DNA of 64,000 nucleotides, taken from the NCBI RefSeq assembly GCF_001720485.1, contig NZ_CP017114.1:3162001-3226000 (forward strand), in the 5' to 3' direction. The stretch comes from Cobetia marina. GTDB taxonomy: Bacteria; Pseudomonadota; Gammaproteobacteria; Pseudomonadales; Halomonadaceae. Below, in pieces: positions 6,167 to 23,353 of this stretch; the stretch's first letter is position 1; every line of letters begins with the position of its first letter. The notes beneath the pieces are model-generated. The model was not told the DNA's origin. It did no database searches and saw nothing but the letters and a program-made list of their open reading frames with translations. Both the position numbers and the translations under genes were made by a program.

Positions 6167-7318
6167 TCAACGCGACAGCAGGCGCCGGTGGGTATGAATG
6201 CTCATGAGAATACCGAAGCCCGCCAGCAAGGTCACGCTGGAGGTCCCACCATAACTGACCAGCGGCAGCGGAACGCCCACCACCGGGAGAATGCCTGACA
6301 CCATGCCGATGTTGACGAACACATAGACGAAGAAGGTCAGGATGATGGCTCCCCCTGTCAGGCGCGCGAAGCTGTCCTGACCATGGTTGGCCATCACCAG
6401 CCCGCGCAGCACGATCAACACGTAGAGGGCGAGGAAGAAACTCATGCCCAGCAGCCCGAGTTCCTCCCCGATCACCGCGACGATGAAGTCGGTATGCCGC
6501 TCAGGCAGAAATTCCAGCTGCGATTGGGTCCCCAGGGTATAGCCCTTGCCCAGCAAGCCTCCGGAGCCGATGGCGGTCTTGGACTGGATGATGTTCCAGC
6601 CGGCTCCCAGCGGGTCGGACTCCGGATTCAGGAAGGTCAGCACACGCCGGCGTTGATAGTCATGCATCACCATCCACAGAAGCGGCAGCGCCGAGGCGAT
6701 CAACGCCCCGAAGAAGGCGATCAGTTTCCAGGAGAGTCCCGCCAGCAGGATGACGAAGACCCCGGCCGCCGCGACCAGCAGCGAGGTTCCCAGATCCGGC
6801 TGCCGGGCGATCAGCAGCACCGGCGTGACGATGATCACCCCACAGATGACCAGATCGCGCCAGCGTGGCGGCAGCGGCCGCTGCCCCAGCCAGCAGGCGA
6901 CCATCATCGGCATCGCCAGCTTCATGAGCTCCGACGGCTGGAAGCGCACGACGCCGGGAATCACCAGCCAGCGCTGGGCCCCCATGCCGACATCCCCCAG
7001 TACCTCCACCGCCACCAGCATCAGGAAACCGCCGCCGTAGGCGACAGGTGCCCAGCGGTACAGCGTGCTCGGAGAGAGCTGCGCCAGGCCGATCATGACC
7101 CCCAGCGCCAACGCCTGACGTGACGCCTGGCGCAGCGTGAAATCGATATCCTGACCGCTGGCGCTGTAGAGCACGATCAGACCGCACCCCAGCACGATCA
7201 GCAGCAACAGCAGCAGCCAGGGGTCCAGATGGATCCGCTCCCACAGACTGGTGCGACGCCGGCGATTGAGCTCGCCTCCCACGCTGCGCATCGAGCGCTG
7301 ATAATCAGTCGGCATCAT
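6167..7318 (-). CDS. rodA: Peptidoglycan glycosyltransferase RodA
   Basis: SEDS-family polymerase that builds glycan strands for cell elongation with PBP2. The 383-residue protein has about ten membrane segments and the SEDS features FQPSELMKLAMP, QPDLGTS and the long periplasmic loop region with NPESDPLGAGWNIIQSKTAIGSGGLLGKG split by loop residues. Two adjacent ATG codons (7318 and 7315) fit; the second is better spaced from the AGGAG site. The gene overlaps mrdA by 14 bases, matching the coupled mrdA-rodA pair of other gammaproteobacteria. Confidence 0.96.
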   Translation of the reverse strand: MMPTDYQRSMRSVGGELNRRRRTSLWERIHLDPWLLLLLLIVLGCGLIVLYSASGQDIDFTLRQASRQALALGVMIGLAQLSPSTLYRWAPVAYGGGFLMLVAVEVLGDVGMGAQRWLVIPGVVRFQPSELMKLAMPMMVACWLGQRPLPPRWRDLVICGVIIVTPVLLIARQPDLGTSLLVAAAGVFVILLAGLSWKLIAFFGALIASALPLLWMVMHDYQRRRVLTFLNPESDPLGAGWNIIQSKTAIGSGGLLGKGYTLGTQSQLEFLPERHTDFIVAVIGEELGLLGMSFFLALYVLIVLRGLVMANHGQDSFARLTGGAIILTFFVYVFVNIGMVSGILPVVGVPLPLVSYGGTSSVTLLAGFGILMSIHTHRRLLSR

Positions 7319-9257
7319 TGACTCCTGCAGGGGTTTCGCTCTGCTCGGCCTGCGCCGCCGTCTCTTCCAGGGCCGCCGCCAGCGTCAGGGCGGCATCACG
7401 GGCGACAGGATCAATGCGCGGCAACAACCAGTAATCCGTGATGGCACGTGCCATGGGGCCGGCCACCGAGCTTCCGCCCTGACCGTTCTCCACCACCACG
7501 GACACGGCGATCTCGGGATTCTCGACCGGCGCGAACGCCGCAAACAGGGCATGGTCGCGCAGACGTTCCGCCAGCTCGTGACCGTTGTACTTCTGGTCCT
7601 GCCCCAGGGTGAAGACCTGCGCCGTACCGGACTTGCCGGCCATGCGATACTTGAGCCCGGGACCGACGTACTTGCGCGCCGTGCCCTCGCGGCCATTGAC
7701 CACGTCCTCAAGCGCGCCGATGACCTCGTCCCACCAGGCCGGATTCTCAACCACCACGTCAGGCTTCTCTTCGCTGCGCGGCAACAGCACCGTCTCATCG
7801 CCGATGCGCTTGGCCAGATGAGGCGTCACATGCCGGCCACGATTGGCCAGCACCGCCTCGGCGGAGGCGAGCTGCAGGGGCGTCGTCAACCAGTAGCCCT
7901 GGCCGATCCCGATGGAGATGGTCTCGCCGGGATACCAGGGCTTGTCGTAGCGATTGCGCTTCCATTCCTTGGACGGCATCAACCCCGGCAAGGCACCCTG
8001 CACGTCCAGCGCGGTCTGCTCACCGAACCCGAACTTGTGCATGTACTCGCTGATGCGATCGATGCCCAGTCGATAGGCGACATTGTAGAAGTAGGTGTCA
8101 TTGGAGACGGCGATACCGCGCCGCATGTTGACCCGTCCATGCCCCCAGCGCAGCCAGTTGCGATACTTGTGGCTGTCATTGGGCAGCTGGAAATACCCCG
8201 GGTCGAAGAAGGTGGTCTGCGGCGTGATGACACCATTGTCCAGCCCCGCCAGCGACATGAAGGGCTTGACCGTCGAGGCAGGCGGATACTGTCCCCGTAT
8301 CGCCCGATTGAACAGCGGCAGGTCGATGTCGGACTGCAACGCACGGTAACTCTTGACGCTGATGCCGGTGACGAACTCGTTGGAATCAAAGCCCGGCACC
8401 GAGGCCATGGCGAGGATCTCGCCGCTCTCCGGCTCGATGGCCACGATCGCCCCACGGCGCCCCTTGAGCAGTCGATAGGCCAGATCCTGCAGGCCACGGT
8501 CGATGGTCAGCGTCAAGTCCTTGCCGGGCTGCGGGTCGATACGCGACAGCTCACGCAGCACGCGGCCGCGCGCATTGGTTTCCACCTTGCGCAGCCCGGC
8601 CTGACCATGCAGCGCCTCTTCATAGAAGCGCTCGATCCCGGTCTTGCCGATGAAGTGCGTTCCCGAATAGTTGCCCTTGTCGAGGGTCTTGAGCTCCGCC
8701 TGATTGATGCGCCCGACATAGCCCAGCGTATGCGAGAGCGGCTTGGCATCCGGGTAGTAACGCAGCAGCTGGGCCTCGACCTCGACACCTGGCAGGCGAT
8801 AGCGATTGACCGCCAGACGCGCGATCTGCTCTTGGCTCAGCTCACTCATCAACAGGGCTGGCTGATAGGGGCGCTGTCGCTGACGCGAGCGTTCCTTGAA
8901 GTCTTCGATTTCATCAGGGGGGAGATCGAGAATCTCGACCAGACGCTCAAGCGTCGTCTCCAGATCACCGGCGCGTTCGCGCACGATGGTCAGGTTGTAA
9001 TTGGGACGATTCTCGGCAAGCAGGCGACCGTTGCGGTCATAGATCAGGCCGCGCGTCGGCGGCAGGGGTTCGACACGCACACGGTTCTTGTCCGAGCGCG
9101 TGGTATAGATATCGTGTTCCACGACCTGAAGAAAGACCAGCCGTGCCAGCAGGCAACCGGCCAGCACCAGCACCAGGCCGGCGGCCACGATACTGCGAAG
9201 GCGAAAGATCCGCACTTCCTGTTGGGGATTCTTGATCGTCGCCCGGCGTTGGCGCAT
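7305..9257 (-). CDS. mrdA: Penicillin-binding protein 2 (peptidoglycan DD-transpeptidase)
   Basis: Class B penicillin-binding protein that cross-links new peptidoglycan in the elongasome with RodA. Seen in 650 residues: one N-terminal membrane segment at about 22-45, the PBP dimerisation region (PPTRGLIYDRNG at 67-77), and the transpeptidase motifs S328-T-V-K331, S385-N-D and K542-S-G-T. The length and motif spacing are typical. The C-terminal tail is Glu/Ala-rich. Transcribed after rlmH and overlapping rodA. Confidence 0.97.
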   Translation of the reverse strand: MRQRRATIKNPQQEVRIFRLRSIVAAGLVLVLAGCLLARLVFLQVVEHDIYTTRSDKNRVRVEPLPPTRGLIYDRNGRLLAENRPNYNLTIVRERAGDLETTLERLVEILDLPPDEIEDFKERSRQRQRPYQPALLMSELSQEQIARLAVNRYRLPGVEVEAQLLRYYPDAKPLSHTLGYVGRINQAELKTLDKGNYSGTHFIGKTGIERFYEEALHGQAGLRKVETNARGRVLRELSRIDPQPGKDLTLTIDRGLQDLAYRLLKGRRGAIVAIEPESGEILAMASVPGFDSNEFVTGISVKSYRALQSDIDLPLFNRAIRGQYPPASTVKPFMSLAGLDNGVITPQTTFFDPGYFQLPNDSHKYRNWLRWGHGRVNMRRGIAVSNDTYFYNVAYRLGIDRISEYMHKFGFGEQTALDVQGALPGLMPSKEWKRNRYDKPWYPGETISIGIGQGYWLTTPLQLASAEAVLANRGRHVTPHLAKRIGDETVLLPRSEEKPDVVVENPAWWDEVIGALEDVVNGREGTARKYVGPGLKYRMAGKSGTAQVFTLGQDQKYNGHELAERLRDHALFAAFAPVENPEIAVSVVVENGQGGSSVAGPMARAITDYWLLPRIDPVARDAALTLAAALEETAAQAEQSETPAGVNDAD

Positions 9258-9299
9258 GGCGGGTCTCGCAACTCGTGTCTTGTCGCAAGCGGCAGGCGC

Positions 9300-9767
9300 T
9301 TAACGGTGATAAGGATGCCCGACCAGCAGTGTCCAGGCGCGGTAGAGCTGCTCCGCCAATACGATGCGCACCAGCGGGTGCGGCAGGGTCAGCGCGGAGA
9401 GCGACCAGCGCTGATCCGCGCGGGCCAGCAGGCGTGGATCGAGCCCGTCAGGACCGCCGATCAGGATGGCCACATCGCGACCGCCCAGGCGCCAGTCATC
9501 GGCGTGCTGAGCCAGCTGCTCCGTGCTCCACGACTTCCCTAGGACATCAAGGGCGACAACATGTTCATTTCCCTTGAGTTTTTCGAGCATCCGATCACCT
9601 TCACTGGCCATGGCACGGGCAATGTCCGCGTTCTTGCCACGGTTTCCGGGCGCCAGTTCGATGAATTCGAGGGAAAAGTCTCTTGGCATGCGCTTGAGAT
9701 ATTCCCGGCTACCCTTCTCCACCCAGTCAGGCATCTTCTGCCCGACCGCCAGTACTCGGATCTTCAT
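9300..9767 (-). CDS. rlmH: 23S rRNA (pseudouridine1915-N3)-methyltransferase RlmH
   Basis: SPOUT-class methyltransferase that modifies a pseudouridine in helix 69 of 23S rRNA in assembled ribosomes. The start at [12 protein letters not shown] gives 155 residues, the usual family length. An in-frame 38-residue upstream extension is rejected. Seen: the knot region LIGGPDGLD and the C-terminal HPLVR...EQLYRAW...HPYHR motif. Lies between rsfS and mrdA as in Escherichia coli. Confidence 0.95.
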
Positions 9768-9926
9768 GTCCTGTCCCGTGTCGTCAGTGGCCAACGGGCA
9801 TGCCCGCTGACCCTCTCCTTCCGTCCAACCACCACGGGCCCGCCCTGTCAGCATGCTGGCCGCAACCGGCGCCGGTGGCACCGCCGTGCCGCATCACTCC
9901 GCCTCTTGAGGCAGGCAAGAGCGGAA

Positions 9927-10286
9927 TCAGCTGCGCTGTTCGAACTCTTCGCTCGTCTCGCGGGGCAGATCGCTCCACAGGCGCTCGAGGTCATACAGGG
10001 CACGGGTTTCGGCCAGCATGACGTGGACGACGACATCGCCCAGATCCAGCAACACCCAGTCGGAACCGTTGTCGCCTTCGCAACCCAGCGGCTTGACGCC
10101 GGCTTCTTTCACCGTGACCTGCACATTGTTGGCCAGAGCGGCGATATGACGGCTGGAAGTCCCCGTCGCGATCACCATGACATCGGTGACGCTGGTCAGC
10201 TTGGAGACATCGATCTCGCTGATTTCCTGGGCCTTGAGGTCGTCAAGGGCGTCGATCACCAGGTTTTTAAGAGCTTCGGTCTGCAT
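9927..10286 (-). CDS. rsfS: Ribosome silencing factor RsfS
   Basis: Binds ribosomal protein uL14 and blocks joining of the subunits during starvation. The 119-residue protein carries the family core [16 protein letters not shown], then [17 protein letters not shown]. The start is preceded by a GAGGA site. The neighbours nadD (upstream) and rlmH (downstream) match the conserved gene order. Confidence 0.95.
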
Positions 10287-10378
10287 GATTCCTCGGAAGT
10301 TTGTTCGGCAGGGGGCGCATTCTACCCGTTGGTGATGCGCTCGCCTATGGGCATCGTCAATCTACGCGTCACGAACCC

Positions 10379-11212
10379 TCACTCACAGGGCGGGCAGTAA
10401 AGCGACCGGGCCTCGATATGGCGGATGACCGTCTCGGGCAGCAGGTAGCGCACGCTATCCCCCAGCGCGAGCCGCTCGCGCACGAAGGTCGCGCTGATCG
10501 CCATGCGGGTCGGCAATGACAACCGCAGCAACAGGCCGCCGGGACGCGCCATCAGCTCGGCCACCGTCTGCACTTCCCGCCCCTCGATCAAGGCCTTCAA
10601 CGCCTCTGGCAGAGGAGCATCATGATCAGGGCGCTCGATCACCACGACATGGGCATCATCGAACAGTCGCTCGGCGGCATGCCATTCGCCAAGCTTGAGA
10701 AAGGCATCATGGCCGATGGCCATCACCAGCCGCGCCTGAGGGCCATATTCGCCGCGCAGGCTCGCCAGGGTGTCGGCACTGTAGGACGGCCCATCCCGGA
10801 AAAGCTCGCGGGCATCCGCCTTGAGCCCCGGCTCACCGGCAATCGCAGCCTCCAGCATGGCCAGACGCTCCTCGCTGCTCACCCCGGGTGCGGCACGATG
10901 TGGCGGCTGATGGCAGGGAATCATCAACACATGATCCAGGCCCAGCGCCTCACGCAGTTCGATGGCGCTGCGAAGGTGCCCGTGGTGTACCGGGTCGAAG
11001 GTGCCCCCGAGCATCGCCACCCGGGGGACCGGCCCGAGACAGCCCTCGAAACCGGGCTGTGGCTTCTCGTCAGGCAGAGTGTCGCAGGCCTCCCCACCCG
11101 GCTGTGCGGCGGGTTCGCGCTGCGCGGCGTCGCCGTCGACATTCAGCGGGCGCTGGCTATCGTCCAGCGCCCGTGGCGATGCGCTGACCGAGGAAGGGTC
11201 TGGAGATCTCAC
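10379..11212 (-). CDS. nadD: Nicotinate-nucleotide adenylyltransferase with possible N-terminal extension
   Basis: Makes deamido-NAD from nicotinate mononucleotide and ATP. The conserved enzyme begins near residue 64 ([16 protein letters not shown], the nucleotidyltransferase motif) and ends with [12 protein letters not shown], a standard length of about 214 residues. The long form begins at a GTG that overlaps the proA stop as GTGA, adding 63 residues rich in Pro, Ala, Ser and acidic residues with no recognisable fold. The first plausible start nearer the conserved part is the GTG at 11020; neither start has a clear ribosome site. The enzyme call is secure, the start is not. Confidence 0.9.
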
Positions 11213-12492
11213 TGACGAATCTGCCCATCGCCGAACACGACATACTTGCGTGTGGTGAGCCCTTCCAGCCCCACGGGCCCGCGAGCGTGCAGCTTGTCGG
11301 TGGAAATGCCGATCTCGGCACCCAATCCGTATTCGAAGCCATCGGCAAAGCGGGTGGAGGCATTGACCATCACGGAGCTGGAATCCACTTCGGCCATGAA
11401 CCGGCGCGCCAGCGCATAGTTGTCGGTGATGATGGCTTCGGTATGTCCGGAGCTGTGACGCTCGATATGCGCCATCGCCGCTTCCACGCCCTCGACGACC
11501 CGAATCGCCAGAATCGGTGCCAGATACTCGGTATCCCAGTCCTGATCCGTGGCGGCCATGGCCTCGGACAGGATGTCACAGGTGCGTTCACAGCCACGAA
11601 TCTCGACCTCATGGACCGCCAGACGCTCGGCGATGCGCGGCAGCACCTCGGCCGCGACAGCCGCATCCACCAGCAGGGTCTCCATGGTGTTGCAGGTACC
11701 GTAACGGTGCGTCTTGGCGTTCTCGGCGATGCTCACCGCCATGTCGAGATCTGCCGTGGCGTCGATATAGACGTGGCAGATACCGTCGAGATGCTTGATG
11801 ACCGGCACGCGCGCCTCATTGGTGATGCGCTCGACCAGACTCTTGCCCCCACGCGGGATGATGACATCGACGTACTCGGGCATCGCGATCAGACGGCCCA
11901 CCGCGGCACGGTCCGTGGTGGCCACCACCTGCACCGCCGTCGCCGGCAGCCCGGCCGCCACCAGCGCCTCGCGGATGATCTCACCCAGCGCACGGTTGCT
12001 GGACGCCGCTTCGGAACCACCACGCAGGATGCAGGCATTGCCGGACTTGAGGCACAGGCTGGCGGCTTCGATGGTGACGTTGGGCCGTGATTCGAAGATG
12101 ATGCCGATCACGCCCAGTGGCACACGCATGTGACCGACCTGGATGCCGCTGGGACGATATTTCAGGCCATCGATCTCACCGACCGGGTCCGGCAGGGCCG
12201 CGACCTGCTCGAGCCCCTCGATCATGGCGTCGATACGCGCCGGCGTGAGGGCGAGGCGGTCGACCATCGCCTCCGACAGGCCATTGTCACGCGCTCGCGT
12301 CAGGTCATCGGCATTGGCGGCGGTCAGCGACTCGCGGCGCTCGTCGATCAGTCGTGCCATGATCTGCAGCGCCCGGTTCTTGAGGCCGCTGTCGACACGA
12401 CGCATCACCACGCTCGCTGCGCGGGCATCGCCGCCCAGACCGTTCATGTAAGCCACGACGTCCGTGGTGTCGTGCTTGCCCAGCTCGCTCAT
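11209..12492 (-). CDS. proA: Glutamate-5-semialdehyde dehydrogenase (gamma-glutamyl phosphate reductase)
   Basis: Second step of proline synthesis: reduces gamma-glutamyl phosphate to the semialdehyde with NADPH. The start at [13 protein letters not shown] gives 427 residues, close to the usual 417. Seen: the cofactor region [14 protein letters not shown] at about 127-140 and the catalytic cysteine C267 in [11 protein letters not shown]. proB is not in the window. Four-base overlap with nadD. Confidence 0.96.
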
Positions 12493-12783
12493 GTGCCTTG
12501 TCTCATTCGTAGAAAGATGTAGGAAAATGCCTTCCGCCCGCTCTGGCGCCTGTGGATCAGCCGAGGGAGGGGTGAAGCGAAAGCGCCGGATCACCTCGAC
12601 ACTTCGGAAAATCATGGTTTGGGGTATGCTGGCCCGTATCAGCGCCTGGCAGAGCCGGGACAGGCAGGCGGCATCACGCTCGCACATCCTGTCATGGCAT
12701 GGCTCAATGCGCTGCGCCCCATCCGACCGGGGAGTCTGGTCGGATTCATGTCATCCACGGGAAAGGTGCCAATATAAGTCACC

Positions 12784-13725
12784 ATGGAGATCAAGTTCAA
12801 AGTCCGGGTCAGTCAGTTCATCTGTCTGCTCGGCTCTGTGCTGTTGCTGCTGGAAGCGGCGCGCCAGATCAGCCTCGCCCTGACCATCACCGGACTGCTG
12901 CTGGCCATCGGCGGCACCTTGCTGCTGGTGGTCTCCCTGGCACACGAACTCTTCACGCTGGGCTGGTTCCGGACCACGGCCATGCTCAGCGTGGCGGTGA
13001 TCATGGCGCTGCTGGTGCTGCTGGCACCCGAGCAGCACATGATGTGGCTATGGGGGTTTGCCGTGCTGCTGCTCTATCCGCGCCCCTCGTGGCTGGCGCC
13101 GGCCTGCGCCATCATCGGGCTGATCACCACCTGGCTGGCACTCACGCCGCTGGGCAGTGACTGGCTGAGCCTTGGCATCGGCATCACGGCCACCTTGATG
13201 GCGCTGGGCGCCATCGCCGGGCAGCGTCAGCAGGAGGTCTGGCGTCAGCTGGAGCGGCGCGGTCGCCGTGACGCGAATCGTGCCATCTGGTCACAATACC
13301 AGCTGCTCCGGGATCTGCCGCGGGAAATTTCCCGGGCAGATCGTGAAGGCATCCACATCGAGCTGATCCTGCTGGAGCCAGCCACCCCCACCCGCCTCAC
13401 GCGTCGCCGTCTGCTGAATACGCTGGACAGCGCGGCGCTGCCCCATGAGACACGCTATCAGCTTGACGACGGCTGCCTGGCGTTGCTGTTGGTGGCACGC
13501 AGCGAACACGCCGCCAACCTGCGGCGTCGGCAGCTCATGGAGCATCTTGCCATGCCAGTGCGGGCGCGGGTCCAGCCGCTGAACGATACCGAGGCCGACC
13601 ATCTCGACCTGCAGGCGGCGAGCGCCAACCTCAGCGAGGAGCGCGAGCCGATCACTCACCTGCCCGCGCTCCCCTCCCGAAAGGCGACACTCGCCGACAC
13701 CCCCCAGGCGGAGGCTGAAGACTGA
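12784..13725 (+). CDS. Polytopic membrane protein with a GGDEF-like degenerate C-terminal domain
   Basis: The 313-residue protein has about six hydrophobic segments in residues 10-140, then a basic linker and a cytosolic domain from about 170. That domain resembles the tail of a GGDEF fold (YQLDDGCLALLLV lies where the signature hairpin would be), but none of the GGDEF, metal or nucleotide residues is present. It has the same architecture as the next gene, with which it shares one base (TGATG), suggesting an old duplication and a heteromeric pair. The C-terminal 40 residues are low-complexity. Not recognised as a named family; no enzymatic function is claimed. Confidence 0.8.
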   Translation: MEIKFKVRVSQFICLLGSVLLLLEAARQISLALTITGLLLAIGGTLLLVVSLAHELFTLGWFRTTAMLSVAVIMALLVLLAPEQHMMWLWGFAVLLLYPRPSWLAPACAIIGLITTWLALTPLGSDWLSLGIGITATLMALGAIAGQRQQEVWRQLERRGRRDANRAIWSQYQLLRDLPREISRADREGIHIELILLEPATPTRLTRRRLLNTLDSAALPHETRYQLDDGCLALLLVARSEHAANLRRRQLMEHLAMPVRARVQPLNDTEADHLDLQAASANLSEEREPITHLPALPSRKATLADTPQAEAED

Positions 13726-14687
13726 TGTCCTCGTCAACGACGGCCACGCGCGCCAGAGAGCGCCGCCGGCTGGCCAATCGCAAGACCCTGATCATGCTGC
13801 TGGCGACCCTGGTGCTGGCCACCTACGCGCTCTGGCGTTATCTGGTCGGGGACTACTCCCACATCCTGACACCGGTGCTGGCCACCTTGCTGATGGGGAT
13901 CGCGACCGCTCTGCACCTCCTGGATGAAGAGCAGCCGCTTCCCGCCTATCTGGCGCTGATCGGCGGTTATCTGATGCTGGCGCTGGAGGCCCCCAGCGCG
14001 CACATCGGAATGTCGCTGTGGCTGGGATTGCCGAGCATCCTGACGCTGCTGCTGCTGCCATTGGCGCCGGCGATGCTCTTGAACGTGGTACTGGCCCCGC
14101 TGTGGCTATGGCTGCTGGGTCAGCCGGATGACAACTTCGGCGAGGTACTGCGCTATGTCTGCCTGCTGCTGGTCGCCAGCCAGCCCTTCGTGATCAACAA
14201 CCTGCAGTCAGGTGTCATGCGCATGACCGCCAGCGAGGAAGTCGAGTGCAATGCCTACAATGCGCGCACCGGCCAGCAGCGGCTGACCAGCGAGGCCGCA
14301 CGCGCCAGTGCGCTGGAGCAGCCGTTGAGCATCCTGGTCATCTACCTGCCGCAGCTGGAGATGCTCGGTGAGCAATTCGGGGAAGACCGCCGCATCGAGT
14401 GTCTCTCCTCGGCCTGCGATGTCATGCAGGGCATCTCGCGTCAGGGCGATCTGCTGTGTCGCAGTGACAAGGCCACGTTCTGGCTGATGCTCCCCAATAC
14501 CGGCGAGGCCGGCGCTCTGATCATGCGTGAACGCCTGACGGCCGCCCTGGCGGCGACGACACAGCCCGAGACCGGCTCGATCATCGCTCACGCTCGTCTC
14601 GTCAACTACAAGGCGGGCGACACGGTACAGAAACTCGAACAACGCCTGCTGGCCGCCCAACTCACCCTGATGGACCTCAATGAATGA
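13725..14687 (+). CDS. Membrane protein with catalytically dead GGDEF domain
   Basis: The 320-residue protein has about six membrane segments (residues 20-165) followed by a recognisable GGDEF fold at about 185-315: NARTGQQRLTSEAAR matches the domain opening, QPLSILVIYLPQLE the first strand, and QGDLLCRSDKATFWLMLPNT the signature hairpin. The metal-binding aspartate of strand 1 is Tyr, and the GGDEF signature reads SDKATF, so cyclic-di-GMP synthesis is not expected. It overlaps the previous gene by one base and the DedA-PAP2 gene by four (ATGA). Inference: a sensory or scaffolding subunit tied to the DedA-PAP2 protein. Confidence 0.82.
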   Translation: MSSSTTATRARERRRLANRKTLIMLLATLVLATYALWRYLVGDYSHILTPVLATLLMGIATALHLLDEEQPLPAYLALIGGYLMLALEAPSAHIGMSLWLGLPSILTLLLLPLAPAMLLNVVLAPLWLWLLGQPDDNFGEVLRYVCLLLVASQPFVINNLQSGVMRMTASEEVECNAYNARTGQQRLTSEAARASALEQPLSILVIYLPQLEMLGEQFGEDRRIECLSSACDVMQGISRQGDLLCRSDKATFWLMLPNTGEAGALIMRERLTAALAATTQPETGSIIAHARLVNYKAGDTVQKLEQRLLAAQLTLMDLNE

Positions 14688-16138
14688 GCAACACCCTTGC
14701 CACACTGACTCACTGGCTGGACCCCACCTCCCTGATGGCCACGCTGAGCGAGCACCCCGTGGCGCTGATTGTCATCATCGGCTTCACCTCCCTGCTCGAA
14801 TCCCTCGCCATCGTCGGACTGCTGGTCCCCGGCGTGGTCATGCTGACGGCCGGCGCCTCGCTGGCGGGGCACCTTGAGCTTTCCCTGCCACTGGTGCTGC
14901 TTTCCGGTGCGCTGGGGGCCGTGATCGGCGATGGCGTGAGCTTCTGGCTCGGCGTCCATCATCGGGATCAGTTACCGCAACGCTGGCCCTTCTCGCGCCA
15001 CCCCGAATGGATCGAACACGGTCAGCGCTTCTTCCATCGTCACGGCAGCTGGTCGATCGCCTTCGGGCGTTTCGTCGGCCCGGTACGCCCGATCATCCCG
15101 CTGGTCGCGGGCATGCTGGACATGCCGGCCTCGCGCTTCTTCATGGTCAATGGTCTCTCGGCACTGGCGTGGTCTCCCGCCTATCTGTTGCCGGGCTACC
15201 TGCTGGGCCAGACCTGGCAATCGCTGTTCACGCTGCCACCGGGCGCCAACGGCCTGCTGATCGGCCTGGCCAGCGGCCTGATCGCCTGCGCCTTTGCCTT
15301 CTCCTTTCTGCGCCGCCAGCTGGGCCGCGAAGGCCGCCTCTATCACTGGCTGGCGCGCCGCATGCGTCGCTCGGCATCCGGCCGTCGCCTGTGGTGGCAG
15401 CTGCGCCACCCCGACCCGGAAGGCGAGTTCCCGCTGGCCTCGATGGCACTGCTGGTCTTTGCCGTCATCAGCGTGCCCGCGATGAGTCTGGCGGCACTCG
15501 CTCACCCCGGGCCCTGGCAGATCGACGTCGTCGCGGCCTCGCTCGCCGACAGACTCCACACCCTGCTGCCCGAGAACCTTCTGCACCAGGCCAGCCTGTG
15601 GCTGTCGCAGCTCGGCGATGGCACGGGGCTAGCGGCACTCGTGGCGCCCTGGCTCGTGTGGCTGGCACTCACGCGCCGCCATGCGATATGGATCCATCTG
15701 AGCGCCGCCTGGGTCGGCATCGCCTGCGCCAATACCGTGCTCAAGTATCTGATCCAGCGCCCCCGTCCGGACACTCCCGCCTTCCTCGAGGGCTCGATGT
15801 CGTTCCCCAGTGCCCACACGGCCGGTGCCGTCGCGGTATTCGGCCTGGCAGCCGCCTTCATCGCCGAACGGCAACCCTCTCCACGCCGACGCTGGATCTA
15901 CTGGAGCGCCATCATCGCCTGTAGCGTGATCGGGCTGTCTCGCATCTTCCTCGGCGTGCACTATCTGAGCGATATCCTGGGCGGCGCCTGTCTGGGACTG
16001 CTGGCGTGTGCTCTGGTGCGCATCAGCTACCCTGCCTTCGTCCAGCAACCCTGCCCCTCGCCGACCGCCCCCGTGGTGTGGTTGAGCCTGGCGAGTCTGG
16101 GTCTGCTGACGGCGCGCCTGCTGTGGCTGCCGCTCTAG
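14684..16138 (+). CDS. DedA-PAP2 fusion (undecaprenyl-phosphate/lipid carrier membrane protein)
   Basis: The 484-residue polytopic protein joins two families. Residues 1-200 are a DedA/VTT domain (SLAIVGLLVPGVVML, then FGRFVGPVRPIIPLVAG with the conserved arginines). Residues from about 240 form a PAP2 phosphatase with all three motifs: KYLIQRPRPD, PSAH (in SFPSAHTAG) and SRIFLGVHYLSD. DedA proteins are known undecaprenyl-phosphate translocases and PAP2 proteins dephosphorylate lipid pyrophosphates, so the fusion would couple dephosphorylation and recycling of a lipid carrier. This substrate is inference. Third gene of an operon with two degenerate-GGDEF membrane proteins. Confidence 0.92.
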   Translation: MSNTLATLTHWLDPTSLMATLSEHPVALIVIIGFTSLLESLAIVGLLVPGVVMLTAGASLAGHLELSLPLVLLSGALGAVIGDGVSFWLGVHHRDQLPQRWPFSRHPEWIEHGQRFFHRHGSWSIAFGRFVGPVRPIIPLVAGMLDMPASRFFMVNGLSALAWSPAYLLPGYLLGQTWQSLFTLPPGANGLLIGLASGLIACAFAFSFLRRQLGREGRLYHWLARRMRRSASGRRLWWQLRHPDPEGEFPLASMALLVFAVISVPAMSLAALAHPGPWQIDVVAASLADRLHTLLPENLLHQASLWLSQLGDGTGLAALVAPWLVWLALTRRHAIWIHLSAAWVGIACANTVLKYLIQRPRPDTPAFLEGSMSFPSAHTAGAVAVFGLAAAFIAERQPSPRRRWIYWSAIIACSVIGLSRIFLGVHYLSDILGGACLGLLACALVRISYPAFVQQPCPSPTAPVVWLSLASLGLLTARLLWLPL

Positions 16139-16221
16139 ACCGTCATTCACGATCGACCCTCAAGGTGATCGCTGCACGTCATCACCGCCACCACCTTCGC
16201 CTTCTGCCCAAGAGGATACCC

Positions 16222-17100
16222 ATGCCCGGTCCTGCCGCTCCCCCTGCCAACCAGCCCCAGGCGCTCATGTCGATTCATCTCGGCATCGCGCTGCTCGGCG
16301 GCACGGCGCTGTTCTCGAAGGGCCTGCCACTCTCGGCGCTCGACATCACCACCTGGCGCAGCCTGCTGGCCGGCCTGTTCCTTCTGTGGATCGCACGGCT
16401 GAAGTGGCAGGTCTCGCTGCGCCTGAGCGGCCGCGACTGGGCGCTGGTGGGCGTGGCCGCGGCGTTGATGGCCGCTCACTGGGTCAGCTACTTCCACGCG
16501 ATGCAGGTCTCGTCCGTGGCCACCGGCATGCTGGCACTGTTCACCTATCCCATCTTCATCGTGCTGCTGGAACCCTGGGTGGAGGGCACGCGCCTGAAAG
16601 CCGGGGATCTGGCGGCGGCAGGGCTGGTGTGCATCGGCGTCTGGCTGCTGGTTCCCGGCGGCGACAGCAGCGCGCAGGGCGATAGCCTGGCGGGAGTGTT
16701 GTGGGGCGTGTTCTCGGGCCTGCTGTTCGCGGCGCGCAATCTGCTGGTGCGCTACCGTCTCAGCCACCTCAACCCGGTGCTGTCGATGAGCCTGCAGGCG
16801 CTGGGCGTGGTGGTGCTGACATTGCCGTTCGCCTCCGGCGAGATCATGGACGCAAGCCCGGGAACAGGCATCGCCATGCTGGTACTGGCCGTCGTGTTCA
16901 CGGCCACCCCCCATGCCCTGATGACCTTCGCCCTGGGCGGCCTCAGGGCCAAGACCGTCGGCATGATCGGCTGTCTGCAGCCGGTGTATGGGGTGCTGCT
17001 TGCCTGGTTGATTCTCGGCGAGGCCCCCACCTGGATGACGCTGGTGGGCGGCAGTTTCATCGTGGCGGCGGCGGCACTGGAGACCCTGCGACGCAATTGA
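16222..17100 (+). CDS. EamA family (drug/metabolite superfamily) transporter
   Basis: The 292-residue inner-membrane protein has two EamA repeats, each of about five membrane segments: the first opens with HLGIALLGGTALFSKGLP, the second with GVLWGVFSGLLFAARNLLVRYR. The start is fixed by an AAGAGGA ribosome site seven bases upstream. Family members export amino acids or other small metabolites; the substrate cannot be read from sequence. It follows the DedA-PAP2 gene by 83 bases and converges on the LysE-type exporter. Confidence 0.9.
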   Translation: MPGPAAPPANQPQALMSIHLGIALLGGTALFSKGLPLSALDITTWRSLLAGLFLLWIARLKWQVSLRLSGRDWALVGVAAALMAAHWVSYFHAMQVSSVATGMLALFTYPIFIVLLEPWVEGTRLKAGDLAAAGLVCIGVWLLVPGGDSSAQGDSLAGVLWGVFSGLLFAARNLLVRYRLSHLNPVLSMSLQALGVVVLTLPFASGEIMDASPGTGIAMLVLAVVFTATPHALMTFALGGLRAKTVGMIGCLQPVYGVLLAWLILGEAPTWMTLVGGSFIVAAAALETLRRN

Positions 17101-17181
17101 CTCGCACACCACCGTTGAGACAGCTGCCGGCGTTGCGCCAGCCGCCCCGATAGTCCCCGTCGTCGCGGTTGCTCCAGCCGG

Positions 17182-17224
17182 CGAACACACGAAGGCCCGC
17201 CATTGGCGGGCCTTCGTGTGTTCG
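17182..17224. terminator. Perfect 21-base inverted repeat between convergent exporter genes
   Basis: Two 21-base arms are exact reverse complements separated by a single base, giving a very stable hairpin without flanking T-runs. Its position between two convergent genes fits a bidirectional terminator. Confidence 0.75.
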
Positions 17225-17257
17225 GGGGGTGTCGGTCAGCGCCTTGGCATGCCGAGG

Positions 17258-17887
17258 TCAGCCGGTGGCGAGCCAGATGCCCACGCCGACCATCAGGGTC
17301 CCCGCGACCCGGTTCATGAGCCGCACGCGCGAACCACGACCGAGCCAGCGCGCCAGTCCACTGCCGCCACCGGCATACAGCATCAGACAGCTGAATTCGA
17401 GCGTGAGAATGATGCCCACCAGCGCCACCAGCTGTGGCGTCATCGGCAGGCTCGCGTCCAGAAACGGTGGCAGCAGCGCGATGAAGAACGCCCAGCCCTT
17501 GGGATTGGCGATGGCGGTGACGAAGCCCTGTGCCGCCAATGTCCGCCGCGAGGCGCGTGGTGCAGCACTGGCCTCGCCCACGGCCCCCAGCGCCAGGCGC
17601 CCCCGCGAGCGCCACATCTGGATGCCGAGCCACACCAGATAGGCGCCCCCAGCCAGCTTGAAGGCCGAGAACACCAGCGGATAGCGCAGCATGATGGTCG
17701 CGACCCCGATCACGGCCGAGACCGCCACCAGCCCGACCCCCAGCAGCTCGCCCACCATCATCCACAGGGTGCGGCGCACCCCTTGCGTCATCCCCAGGGT
17801 CATGGCCAGCGTCATGCACATGCCCGGTGTCAGCGACACCAGAAAGAAGGTCGGCACGAACACCGACAACAATGACCAATTCAGCAT
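17258..17887 (-). CDS. LysE/RhtB family amino-acid exporter
   Basis: The 209-residue membrane protein has about six membrane segments and the family N-terminus FLVSLTPGMCMTLAM, where the PG motif is characteristic, and a later ANPKGWAFF motif. The start at MLNWSLLSVF is chosen over an upstream GTG because GGGAG lies eight bases before it. Family members export lysine, homoserine, threonine or similar compounds; the substrate is not determinable here. Divergently placed next to ubiX with only a 42-base gap on the same strand. Confidence 0.9.
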   Translation of the reverse strand: MLNWSLLSVFVPTFFLVSLTPGMCMTLAMTLGMTQGVRRTLWMMVGELLGVGLVAVSAVIGVATIMLRYPLVFSAFKLAGGAYLVWLGIQMWRSRGRLALGAVGEASAAPRASRRTLAAQGFVTAIANPKGWAFFIALLPPFLDASLPMTPQLVALVGIILTLEFSCLMLYAGGGSGLARWLGRGSRVRLMNRVAGTLMVGVGIWLATG

Positions 17888-17929
17888 TCCCTGCTCTCCC
17901 TGCACAATCCGATGATCAAGATGACGACA

Positions 17930-18583
17930 CTAGTCACCACTGACATGCCCTTCGCCCCAGCGCGGCATCAGCGCATGCGCGATTCCCAGCTGATTGAGAA
18001 TGCGCGCGACGATGAAGTCGATCATGTCATCGAGTGTCTGCGGGCGGTGATAGAAGCCGGGGGCGGCGGGCAGGATGACGGCCCCCATGCGCGTCAGGCT
18101 CAGCATGTGTTCGAGATGGATCGCCGAGAACGGCGTCTCGCGCGGCACCAGAATCAGCGTGCGACGCTCCTTGAGGGCGACGTCGGCGGCGCGTTCGATC
18201 AGATTGTTGCTGGCGCCGGTCGCGATGGACGAGAGCGAGCCGGTGGAACATGGACATACCACCATGGCACTCGGCGCGCCGGAGCCGGACGCCACGGGCG
18301 CCATCCAGTCCTCGCGGCCGAAGCAGCGAATCTGACCGGGCCTGGCGGCGTAGCGCTGGGTGAGCACCTCGGTGAGGCGAACCGGGCGCGCCGGCAGTTC
18401 TTCATCGGTCTCGGTGGCGATCACCATGTGGGCGGCCTTGGAGACCATCACCATCACCTCATGACCCGCCGCGACCAGGCATTCGATCAGCCGCAGGCCA
18501 TACTGGGCACCCGAGGCCCCGGTCAGCGCGACGGTGACCGCTGACTTGAACTCCCCTTCGGGGGCTTTCGCTTGCTGGCTCAT
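17930..18583 (-). CDS. ubiX: Flavin prenyltransferase UbiX
   Basis: Attaches dimethylallyl to FMN to make the prenylated flavin cofactor of UbiD decarboxylase, needed for ubiquinone synthesis. The 217-residue protein shows the FMN-binding opening VALTGASGAQYGLRL, the CPCSTGSLSSIATG loop and the C-terminal LVPRETPFS...HLEHMLSL motif. It overlaps mpl by four bases. ubiD is not in the window. Confidence 0.95.
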   Translation of the reverse strand: MSQQAKAPEGEFKSAVTVALTGASGAQYGLRLIECLVAAGHEVMVMVSKAAHMVIATETDEELPARPVRLTEVLTQRYAARPGQIRCFGREDWMAPVASGSGAPSAMVVCPCSTGSLSSIATGASNNLIERAADVALKERRTLILVPRETPFSAIHLEHMLSLTRMGAVILPAAPGFYHRPQTLDDMIDFIVARILNQLGIAHALMPRWGEGHVSGD

Positions 18584-20022
18584 GCCTCACCTTCCCGTGC
18601 TGCCAGTGCACTCAACAGACGTTCGTGGATACCGCCGAAGCCACCATTGGACATCACCACCACCCAGTCGCCGGCGCGGGAGTCATTGGCGATCTTGGCG
18701 ATCAGGGCGTCGAGGTCCTGCTCGACATCGGCTTCAACGCCGAGGGCACGACACTCGCTGACCGTCTCGTCCAGTGACCAGCCCAGTGTCGGGCCCGCGA
18801 ACCAGCTGACCCGATCCGCTGCGGTGACCGCTGCCGGCAGGCGCGCCTTCATGGTGCCAAGCTTCATGGTGTTGGAACGCGGCTCGATCACCGCCCACAG
18901 ACGACCGCCCTGCCCTTCGGCTGCCACGCCCGGCGCCAGGCCCTCAAGCGTGGTGGCGATGGCGGTCGGGTGGTGCGCGAAGTCATCGATGACCTTGACG
19001 CCGGCCACCTCACCGCGCAGCTCCTGGCGGCGCCTGGGCGGCGCGAAGCGCGCGAGCGCCTGCAGCGCCGCCTCGACACTCACGCCGCACTCGACGGCAG
19101 CGGCCACCGCGGCACAGGCATTGGCCACGTTGTGGCGTCCGCGCATCGCCCACTGGCACTCGACGAAGCGGTCCGCCTCGCCGGACACGGCGGCCGGCGC
19201 CGCCAGCGCGAAGTGGCTGCCATCGGCACTGATCAGACGATAGCGCCAGTCGCCACCGGCGTTCTCGATGCCACCTTCATCGCCGAAGCGTGTCACCGGC
19301 GTCCAGCAGCCTTGATCCAGCACGCGCTCCAGCGCCTCGGCACCGGCGACGGCGTCCGCCGCGACCACCAGCTTGCCGCCAGCCGGCACGGTACGCACCA
19401 GGTGATGGAACTGCCGTTCAATGGCCGCGAGATCCGGGAAGATGTCGGCGTGGTCGAATTCGAGATTGTTGAGCACGGCGATGCGCGGACGGTAATGCAC
19501 GAACTTGGAGCGCTTGTCGAAGAAGGCCGTGTCGTACTCATCGGCCTCGACCACGAAGGGTGCCTGCGGGTCGCCGATACGCGCGGAATCGCCCAGCTGC
19601 GGCGGCACGCCCCCGATCAGATAGCCCGGCGTGAGGCCCGCGCATTCGAGAATCCAGGCGGTCATGGTCGCGGTGGTGGTCTTGCCGTGGGTGCCGGCGA
19701 TGGCGATCACCGGTCGTCCCGTCAGCACCTCGTCACACAGCCATTGCGGGCCGGAGGTGTAGGCCAGGCCGCGCTCGAGCAGCGCCTCGACTTCAGGATT
19801 GCCGCGCGAGACGGCATTGCCGACCACCGTGAGCTCTGGCGCGGGCTCGAGATTGTCGGCGGCATACCCTTCCATCAGGGTGATACCGGCCTCGGCCAGC
19901 TGTGTGCTCATGGGCGGATAGACATTGGCATCGCTGCCGGTGACGCGATGGCCGCGCGCACGCGCAAGCAGTGCCAGAGAGCCCATGAAGGTACCGCAAA
20001 TACCGATGACGTGAAGGTGCAT
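18580..20022 (-). CDS. mpl: UDP-N-acetylmuramate:L-alanyl-gamma-D-glutamyl-meso-diaminopimelate ligase
   Basis: Mur-ligase family enzyme that joins recycled tripeptide directly to UDP-MurNAc, reusing cell-wall fragments. Seen: N-terminal HVIGICGTFMGSLALLAR, the ATP loop GTHGKTTTATM near residue 110, and the EADEYDTAFFDKRSKF motif typical of Mpl rather than MurC. The start at 20022 (ATG, GGAG eight bases upstream) is preferred to a TTG four codons earlier. About 480 residues. Together with mltB, rlpA and dacA in this window it links wall turnover and recycling. Confidence 0.95.
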   Translation of the reverse strand: MHLHVIGICGTFMGSLALLARARGHRVTGSDANVYPPMSTQLAEAGITLMEGYAADNLEPAPELTVVGNAVSRGNPEVEALLERGLAYTSGPQWLCDEVLTGRPVIAIAGTHGKTTTATMTAWILECAGLTPGYLIGGVPPQLGDSARIGDPQAPFVVEADEYDTAFFDKRSKFVHYRPRIAVLNNLEFDHADIFPDLAAIERQFHHLVRTVPAGGKLVVAADAVAGAEALERVLDQGCWTPVTRFGDEGGIENAGGDWRYRLISADGSHFALAAPAAVSGEADRFVECQWAMRGRHNVANACAAVAAAVECGVSVEAALQALARFAPPRRRQELRGEVAGVKVIDDFAHHPTAIATTLEGLAPGVAAEGQGGRLWAVIEPRSNTMKLGTMKARLPAAVTAADRVSWFAGPTLGWSLDETVSECRALGVEADVEQDLDALIAKIANDSRAGDWVVVMSNGGFGGIHERLLSALAAREGEA

Positions 20023-20214
20023 CTGTTTCTCCAATCCGGAAGCCCGAGCAGCCTAGCATGCCCGCCAGGCGGCGAGTAGCACGGGCGTGTCGGGGCAGAA
20101 CGACAGACACGTGGCATCCGGGCGTCGTGCAGGGGTCATGTCTTTCGGATATGATGCGGCGGGTAAGCGCCAGCCCGTTCAAGACCATGACAAGGAAGCA
20201 GAGACGAGAAGCCC

Positions 20215-21625: not shown

Positions 21626-23353
21626 CTATTTGAGCAACCAGGACAGCACCAGCAGCAACAGCAGGATGCCGGCGACGCCCTGCCAGAAATTGGCTGGTTC
21701 GCGCATGGCCTCGGATGGCGTGATGGCCTTGCCGGGGTCCTGCTGTGGCAGGCGCAGTGCATAGAGCAGCTCCGACAGACGTCGGAAGCGCAAGGTGCGC
21801 TGAGGGTCCAGCGCACGCCTCAGGGCATCGTCCAGCATCTGGGGAACCTGCGGGTTGCGCATGCGTGCCGGCTGATACTCCAGCAGCTCGAGGTCCGTCT
21901 GGGTGCGCAGCTGATCCATCGACTGAGCGTAGGGCTGCATGCCGGTCAGCAGCCAGTAGATCACCGACGCCAGCCCGTACTGATCGCTGCGGCGACTGAC
22001 CTCGGCCCCCAGCGCATATTCCGGCGCACTGTGCTCGGTCAGCCCGACCTGGCGCACCAGGGGACCGGCACTCTCGTGCCCATCCCCTTCGCGCAGATGA
22101 CAGGCCCCGAAGTCCACCAGCACTACCTTGCCGTGACGGTCGATCATCACGTTGTCGGGGTGGATCAACTGATGCAGCACTTCACGCCGATTGAGTGCGT
22201 GGACCGCCTTGCCCAGCTGGCGGGCGATATCCAGGCGCTGCTCGAGATTGGCCTGGGGATGCTGGCGCGCCCAGTCGGTCAGCGTCTGCGCCTCCAGATG
22301 CTCGAGCAGATAGTAGAGGTGATCCCGCGGGCGCGAGGGTTCCACCACCTTGACGACGAAGGGCGAGTTGACGCGATCCACCACCCACTGCTGGAGCAGG
22401 AAGTGCTCGAGATAGGCGTTCTTGAGCGAGAGTTCCGGACTCGGCGCCTTCATCACCATCACGCGCCGGCTCTTGAGATCGCGGACCTTGTAGACGCGCA
22501 CCCGCGCACTGCGTGACATCACCTCCAGCACTTCCAGCCCATCGATGCGATCCCCCGGCTCCAGCTCGCGCGGCACCGGCAGATCCCCATAGATGCGCCC
22601 CGGCGTGTCCTCGCTGGCACTGGCCAGGCGATCGATACGCACCAGCTGGAAGCAGAACTGATCCGCGGTATAGCCACGTTCGTCGGCACGGTCCGCCGCG
22701 GCATGCGCGAGACGCTCGCTGGCGGCGTCCAGATCCGAGACATCGTCACGAATCAGTGACACGAAGTCCGAGGGCAGCAAGGTGCCGCGCACCGCCTGGG
22801 TGGTCAGCAGGAAGATGTCGCCCTGCTTGAGCGGCAATTCGATGTAATCGATGTCGAGACTGACATCCATGCCCAGAGCCCGTGAGGGATAGCGATAACC
22901 GCCCAGGTCCGTGACATGATCACGCGAGATCTGTTCGAACTCGCCACCACGCAGACGGAACACCACGGTATCGCCGGCATGGAACAGATGCGCCGACTGG
23001 CCACGGAAGATGACCGCGGAAATCGAGGTGACGTAACTGCCGCCACGCACGAAGCGACTCTGGCTGTAGCACCAGCTGTTCAGCGCTCGCAGCACACGAG
23101 TCGCGGAATACTTGACACTCCAGTTGTCGGGCGTGGCGAAGTAGTCGGCCAGAAAGCCACGCACGGCCAGATCGCCCGCCTGCTTGGCGATGGCGTTCTT
23201 GCTGGTGGTATCCGCGATCAACGCACAGCCGCCCTTGGTCGCCAGCGGGCCACGCTCGACAGGAATTTCCAGCGACATCGAGCTGCGGTGGCGCTTGCGG
23301 TCCGGTGCCACGAAGGCCTGACCATAACTGAGTGAAAGCTCTGCATCCGCCAA
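21626..23353 (-). CDS. PP2C-like phosphatase/protein kinase fusion with degenerate active sites
   Basis: The 575-residue protein has a PP2C fold at 1-240, a protein-kinase fold at about 270-540 and a C-terminal membrane anchor at 558-575. It aligns by eye with bifunctional Ser/Thr kinase-phosphatase proteins of gammaproteobacteria, but key residues are gone. In PP2C the NQD metal motif reads HRS (22-24), the DG motif reads DT (48-49) and the late TDG reads TQA (185-187). In the kinase the HRDxKPxN loop reads HQLIHPDN (394-401), so the catalytic Asp is Leu. K302 and DFG (414-416) remain. The start is TTG with a strong AAGGAG site six bases upstream. Probably a signalling scaffold rather than an enzyme (inference). 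Confidence 0.85.
   Translation of the reverse strand: MADAELSLSYGQAFVAPDRKRHRSSMSLEIPVERGPLATKGGCALIADTTSKNAIAKQAGDLAVRGFLADYFATPDNWSVKYSATRVLRALNSWCYSQSRFVRGGSYVTSISAVIFRGQSAHLFHAGDTVVFRLRGGEFEQISRDHVTDLGGYRYPSRALGMDVSLDIDYIELPLKQGDIFLLTTQAVRGTLLPSDFVSLIRDDVSDLDAASERLAHAAADRADERGYTADQFCFQLVRIDRLASASEDTPGRIYGDLPVPRELEPGDRIDGLEVLEVMSRSARVRVYKVRDLKSRRVMVMKAPSPELSLKNAYLEHFLLQQWVVDRVNSPFVVKVVEPSRPRDHLYYLLEHLEAQTLTDWARQHPQANLEQRLDIARQLGKAVHALNRREVLHQLIHPDNVMIDRHGKVVLVDFGACHLREGDGHESAGPLVRQVGLTEHSAPEYALGAEVSRRSDQYGLASVIYWLLTGMQPYAQSMDQLRTQTDLELLEYQPARMRNPQVPQMLDDALRRALDPQRTLRFRRLSELLYALRLPQQDPGKAITPSEAMREPANFWQGVAGILLLLLVLSWLLK

Follow-up and report, generated by a model that had tools for sequence, protein, structure and literature searches.

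Paired, catalytically dead GGDEF membrane proteins as a probable c-di-GMP receptor encoded beside a DedA-PAP2 gene in Cobetia marina and its relatives

Why should a bacterium keep two membrane proteins with dead GGDEF domains in one operon with a protein of the DedA-PAP2 type? This question is raised by a three-gene operon, here called A-B-C, in the genome of Cobetia marina (contig NZ_CP017114.1, positions 3,162,001 to 3,226,000; this whole stretch of 64,000 nucleotides is referred to as the window). A and B most likely form a paired receptor for cyclic dimeric guanosine monophosphate (c-di-GMP) and not a cyclase; the fuller reading, in which this membrane receptor of duplicated dead cyclases acts on the neighbouring C, we regard as evenly balanced between right and wrong. 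The operon consists of:

12784..13725, + strand: gene A, 313 residues, about six membrane helices and a degenerate GGDEF-fold domain; the partner protein
13725..14687, + strand: gene B, 320 residues, about six membrane helices and a catalytically dead GGDEF domain with an intact inhibitory site (I-site); predicted c-di-GMP receptor
14684..16138, + strand: gene C, 484 residues, DedA (VTT) fused to a PAP2 phosphatase; likely, unproven output

A sequence-only reading of this DNA had described three overlapping genes, the first two sharing a plan of about six membrane spans and then a domain. The open reading frames of the window and the letters at their junctions confirm overlaps of one base between A and B (TGATG) and of four bases between B and C (ATGA), and the predicted helices of both A and B fit the common plan.

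The features of B on which the receptor reading depends are these:

13740..14228, + strand: membrane part and signalling helix (residues 6-168; predicted structure)
14232..14678, + strand: pseudo-GGDEF domain (residues 170-318; Pfam and predicted structure)
14301..14303, + strand: R193, at the position of PleD R313 (alignment); in PleD this arginine is supplied by the adjacent domain
14439..14450, + strand: R239-x-x-D242, the RxxD motif of the primary I-site (PleD R359 and D362; alignments)
14466..14480, + strand: DKATF in place of GGDEF (residues 248-252); dead active site
14532..14534, + strand: R270, equivalent to PleD R390, the third residue of the primary I-site (alignments)

Pfam GGDEF matches residues 178-285 of B (E 4.1e-10), and the predicted models show GGDEF folds for the domains of both A and B, that of B standing directly after the last helix. 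Set against the usual sequence pattern of active GGDEF sites, the active site of B is lost: DKATF is preceded by RS, and the first metal-binding Asp is replaced by Tyr. The sequence-only reading had given B a GGDEF fold with the signature SDKATF and a Tyr for the metal Asp, with which the Pfam match and the alignment agree. What it overlooked is that, to judge from the residues, the complete c-di-GMP I-site is intact in B. In PleD, one GGDEF domain supplies R359, D362 and R390 of this site, and its neighbour supplies R313 (PMC7288161); in the cyclase DgcR the role of R313 is filled by a non-homologous arginine (PMC8041772). A single offset of 120 turns R193, R239, D242 and R270 of B into these R313, R359, D362 and R390.

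The conservation of this site is far wider than one genome. We aligned 48 B proteins, 28 from the family of the window (the own family) and 20 from three other families; R313, R359 and D362 each have their counterpart in 48/48, and the R390 position is R in 46 and K in two. The first metal Asp is found in none of the 48, and a GGDEF-type signature in 0/48 B and 0/49 A proteins. R193, R239, D242 and R270 are among the nine invariant columns of an alignment of 27 own-family B sequences (alignment A1) and are invariant also when B of the window is aligned with 29 database proteins. Among the 120 Marinobacter-type proteins listed of 306 matches, all four I-site residues occur in 120/120, the first metal Asp in 4/120 and the first G of the motif in 0/120. 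The counts of A and B leave out L003 and L004, near copies of L002, and those of B also leave out the frameshifted B of the draft genome locus L025 (G012:C28), whose frame is broken near residue 125 by a sequencing error or as a pseudogene. We infer from this pattern that B binds c-di-GMP.

The partner A has gone further in the same direction. Its two parts are:

12787..13263, + strand: membrane part and linker helix (residues 2-160; predicted helices, with a model confidence (predicted local distance difference test) of about 50-60 here)
13285..13638, + strand: pseudo-GGDEF domain (residues 168-285); the window copy is without RxxD

A of the window alone gives no Pfam match over the cut-off, and only 3 of 28 own-family A proteins give weak Pfam GGDEF matches, although Pfam GGDEF matches 17 of 19 A orthologues of other families. 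A profile-profile comparison of A with B yields a probability of 98 (E 2.8e-13) over 239 columns, the membrane part included, and the predicted fold of the A domain is GGDEF-like. These three lines of evidence bear out the earlier description of A as an even more eroded GGDEF-like protein than B, and GGDEF similarity was thus found by profile search for both domains. Four residues of A (E181, R184, R187 and Y225) are invariant in 28 own-family A proteins. Across 49 A proteins, 29 from the own family and 20 from other families, RxxD occurs in 20/20 outside the own family and in only 2/29 inside it, while an R313-type arginine is present in 48/49 and an R390-type arginine is missing from 47/49. 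This pattern suggests that both halves of the pair probably once had more of the I-site; the own-family A, by its residues, now looks like a donor of the neighbour arginine only.

In a tree of 26 A proteins, 26 B proteins and 10 chosen membrane cyclases, A forms a clade with support 98 and B with support 89, and A and B are joined apart from the cyclases with support 98. The common origin of the two is therefore best described as one old duplication followed by parallel descent. The A-profile and B-profile also score with L126 (G042:C11), a stand-alone membrane GGDEF protein with an intact GGEEF, which is a possible living relative of the active ancestor of A and B.

The linkage of A and B is constant, and so is their position next to one divergent gene:

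11209..12687, - strand: proA, identified from its translation; marks the locus in each of the four families with A-B

Of the 37 own-family genomes sampled, 30 have A-B, in all 30 beside proA, which is more than chance would give; in the loci read as A-B, A was always accompanied by B and B by A. Within the genus, B of another genome named Cobetia in the database is 83% identical to B of the window. In the order as a whole the A-profile matched 40 of 293 genomes at E 1e-6, with 53 matches, some of them generic. From these matches 20 regions were taken, namely 18 proA|A-B loci outside the own family, one own-family locus (L127) and L126. The proA|A-B loci read outside the own family number 20: two of family f7, ten of f20 (Marinobacter by database names) and eight of f38 (a Thalassolituus-like family). 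Restriction of A-B to the genus of the window was thus rejected, as the pair is present in four families of the order, namely the Halomonas, Marinobacter and Thalassolituus/Oleispira groups and one more. Absence of A-B is weakly associated with fewer GGDEF matches per genome (7 vs 30 own-family genomes, Mann-Whitney P 0.003), an association that is uncorrected for ancestry and is not used as proof.

The synteny extends to DedA genes, as became clear when the three-gene set was searched across the own family and beyond. C stands directly after B in 26 of the 30 own-family A-B loci, and DedA-PAP2 follows A-B in 12/12 loci of f7 and f20. The B stop reads ATGA in 8/10 Marinobacter-family loci, which permits the same four-base overlap of B and C as in the window, and this possible overlap is frequent in the own family too. 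Among 18 named Thalassolituus-group loci (Thalassolituus, Oleispira, Bacterioplanes and others, some sharing contigs), proA|A-B and the RxxD of B are found in all and a DedA-like gene lies downstream in 14.

C itself appears to be in working order. It matches VTT/DedA (E 1.5e-18, about 14825-15199) and PAP2 (E 5.2e-20, about 15713-16030). The PAP2 motifs Kx6RP, P[SA][GA]H and SRx5Hx3D are intact in 26/26 own-family C proteins that follow B, and RFxGPxR, a motif typical of DedA proteins, in 58/58 C-like reading frames examined, so C looks active as far as motifs can tell. DedA-PAP2 fusions have been reported, with the suggestion that dephosphorylation precedes flipping (PMC10127716), and phosphatase activity of two metagenomic DedA-domain proteins is described in one of three further papers (PMC12212991, PMC6355987, PMC8314537). 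The P. aeruginosa protein PA4011 has the architecture of C (COG0586 with PF01569), and its deletion lowered the frequency of colistin-resistant mutants (PMC12893004); its likeness to C, with the same domain plan and with the motifs of C intact, is one of architecture and not of established orthology.

Does A-B then control C? We put this just short of an even chance, and several observations weigh against it. A-B occurs without C in 4 of the 30 own-family loci (absence judged at E 1e-20); these four genomes hold two to three other DedA-family matches each, and in two of the loci an EamA gene lies 3' of A-B. Conversely, in 7/7 own-family genomes without A-B, C adjoins proA and leaves no space for the pair, so C can do without A-B, and the linkage might be an old gene order held in common. 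In f38, the Thalassolituus-like family, a DedA without PAP2 stands directly after B in only 1/8 loci; a short DedA lies about 1 kb further on in 4/8, with an opposite-strand gene between them in the three that were read, and no DedA is nearby in 3/8. The authors of the PA4011 study judge the protein likely not involved in the flip-back of undecaprenyl phosphate (C55-P; PMC12893004). On the side of the receptor itself, RxxD is missing from 27/29 own-family A proteins, the window copy included.

A quite possible alternative, if an unfavoured one, is therefore that A-B is a c-di-GMP receptor whose output is not C, with C an old neighbour of proA and the true target another envelope, motility or polysaccharide function. 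It accounts for the occurrence of A-B without C (4/30 loci) and of C without A-B (7/37 own-family genomes), and for the single directly adjoining DedA among the eight Thalassolituus-group loci. It sits less well with the possible four-base overlap of B and C in the own family and in 8/10 Marinobacter-family loci, and with the DedA gene found downstream in the majority of the loci across the four families. The sequence-only reading had proposed a sensory or regulatory membrane pair, perhaps nucleotide-binding, which controls the recycling of the wall lipid carrier. Its first part is supported by the conservation beside DedA, and the nucleotide can be sharpened to predicted c-di-GMP at the I-site. 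Its second part is weakened by the loci in which A-B and C occur apart, by the family f38, where DedA is without PAP2 or not nearby, and by PA4011. In view of PA4011, "lipid carrier recycling" is better read, provisionally, as "an envelope lipid".

Could the I-site residues of B persist for reasons other than a ligand? If A-B were a structural or scaffold membrane pair, they would serve packing or dimerisation and bind no nucleotide. RxxD and the R390 arginine are common in active GGDEF domains too, and so may be partly family heritage, and the own-family A has mostly lost RxxD and is still kept. The genome of C. marina provided one control, with 27 GGDEF matches, of which 26 are alignable (L107 is excluded, since the local GGDEF model did not recognise it). 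The signature is intact in 20 of these 26, and in these RxxD is found in 11/20 and RxxD together with R390 in 10/20. Of the six domains without an intact signature only two have both RxxD and R390, namely B and a soluble-looking protein of 524 residues; B apart, RxxD occurs in 1/5 of the domains without GG[DE]EF. For the second control, four other own-family genomes supplied 20 weak GGDEF domains, picked from the weakest non-B matches with four short partial ones omitted. Five of them retain a GGDEF-like signature (GGDEF, GSDEF, GGDQF), and RxxD is found in 0/20, which shows that the fold does not need it. Pooled over five genomes, the weak or degenerate controls have RxxD in 1/25 against 48/48 in B (Fisher P 2e-18, relatedness ignored). 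In the own family, a decaying GGDEF domain thus mostly ends up without RxxD, and B seems to have retained it under selection. Since the ligand residues moreover persist together in the 48 aligned relatives and in the 120 listed of 306 matches, we consider the scaffold explanation improbable.

The soluble-looking protein of 524 residues deserves a word of its own. Its GGDEF domain, a second dead one in this genome (L101, G000:C1:1059784-1060221), lies outside the window and has the signature EDNSL; the N-terminal part of the open frame is, by eye, GAF/PAS-like. The protein keeps the equivalents of RxxD, R390 and R313 and, by these residues, is another candidate c-di-GMP receptor.

It is very improbable that B has remained an active diguanylate cyclase, with an unusual active site and feedback inhibition through the I-site. 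Databases do name B-type proteins "diguanylate cyclase", an AGDEF site can be active (PMC3974145), and one Marinobacter-family copy reads GSGEF; yet the first metal Asp is absent or nearly so in both sets of relatives, the listed Marinobacter-type proteins all lack the first G of the motif, and none of the 48 has a canonical signature. With its catalytic residues lost, B was rejected as an active cyclase. The binding of another cyclic nucleotide or of guanosine tetra- or pentaphosphate, (p)ppGpp, in the I-site region is suggested by PleD structures with (p)ppGpp plus c-di-GMP among the fold matches, and is just as poorly credible, as the residues kept are exactly the c-di-GMP I-site set.

For the paired receptor we suppose the following mechanism. 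c-di-GMP would be made by other cyclases of the cell, as the 20 domains with intact signature in the genome lead one to expect. A stacked dimer of it would bind the primary I-site of B (R239, D242 and R270), and the fourth arginine would come from a neighbour, either R184 of A or R193 of another B, so that an A-B heteromer or a B-B homodimer may be cross-linked by c-di-GMP. The membrane parts would then change and act on a membrane partner. Its recurrent and often overlapping neighbourhood makes the DedA(-PAP2) protein C the likeliest partner, and in that case lipid turnover or translocation would be tuned to the c-di-GMP level. The pairing of A and B as proteins is conditional here, and the action on C above all: the step from A-B to C is the weak one, as each occurs without the other. 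The most specific version, in which DedA-PAP2 is gated directly by a stacked c-di-GMP dimer held between the dead GGDEF domains of A and B in a heteromer, and the second messenger sets envelope-lipid turnover or sidedness in Halomonas-, Marinobacter- and Thalassolituus-like bacteria, is tentative and on balance unlikely.

Receptors in which a dead GGDEF domain binds c-di-GMP at its I-site are already known. PelD, the c-di-GMP receptor in the Pel polysaccharide complex of P. aeruginosa and B. cereus, resides like B in the inner membrane with a dead GGDEF domain, and its binding of c-di-GMP through RxxD and a third arginine (R402) has been measured and is required for output, PelD acting in a membrane complex (PMC7112168, PMC8461298). 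PelD differs in its four predicted membrane helices, its GAF domain and its place in the pel operon; here each protein has about six helices, GAF finds no match, B is accompanied by its dead paralogue A, and the gene next door encodes DedA-PAP2. That A-B is PelD itself was rejected on the lack of a GAF match in the Pfam scan and of pel genes at the locus. BcsE, the c-di-GMP receptor that belongs to cellulose synthase, resembles B in its non-catalytic GGDEF-like domain and I-site and binds c-di-GMP (PMC8461298), but is a soluble protein with other partners. ImcA (8wcn) aligns over residues 10-320 of B at a root-mean-square deviation of 18.6, and only the arrangement of membrane helices plus GGDEF is alike. 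ImcA and the MASE6-GGDEF proteins are membrane diguanylate cyclases, whereas A and B are dead. In two sets of far relatives, Pfam MASE6 is matched by 5 of 19 A proteins, at best with E 4e-7, and by 3 of 21 B proteins, at best with E 3e-4.

What is new is that the probable receptor is a membrane pair inherited together, that it is conserved while its members bear names like "diguanylate cyclase", and that it is linked to DedA. The names "diguanylate cyclase" or "GGDEF domain-containing protein" are in use in Cobetia, Halomonas, Modicisalibacter and many Marinobacter. Searches of open-licence papers brought up no report of a c-di-GMP or GGDEF system with DedA or undecaprenyl, which is no proof of absence; searches on MASE6 found nothing relevant, and those by genus names gave ecology and genome papers. 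In the available text of PMC12212991, PMC6355987 and PMC8314537, DedA and c-di-GMP or diguanylate cyclase are mentioned apart from each other, and in that of the DedA-PAP2 papers GGDEF and diguanylate are absent from PMC12893004 and GGDEF from PMC10127716.

The operon is set among cell-wall genes (7305-20034), assigned by translation: PBP2-like and what we take to be rlmH, rsfS, nadD and proA on one side, and UbiX and an Mpl-like protein (18580-20034) on the other. In relatives without C (L045, L046), too, a UbiX-like gene lies 3' of A-B, and the wider neighbours include, besides DedA-PAP2, an EamA gene. Further on, at 21626-23353 on the - strand, the window encodes a 575-residue protein whose residues 286-522 form a Ser/Thr protein kinase domain; by eye, a PP2C-like stretch precedes the kinase and a C-terminal membrane helix follows it, so this is a possible phosphatase-kinase fusion.

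It is difficult to recognise a c-di-GMP receptor from its sequence. A-B would be a natural example of an enzyme that was duplicated and became a paired receptor. The neighbourhood of A-B and DedA suggests an undescribed link between c-di-GMP and envelope lipids. If receptors paired with DedA are indeed what these loci encode, they would make the question of c-di-GMP control over the handling of envelope lipids directly accessible by simple genetics.

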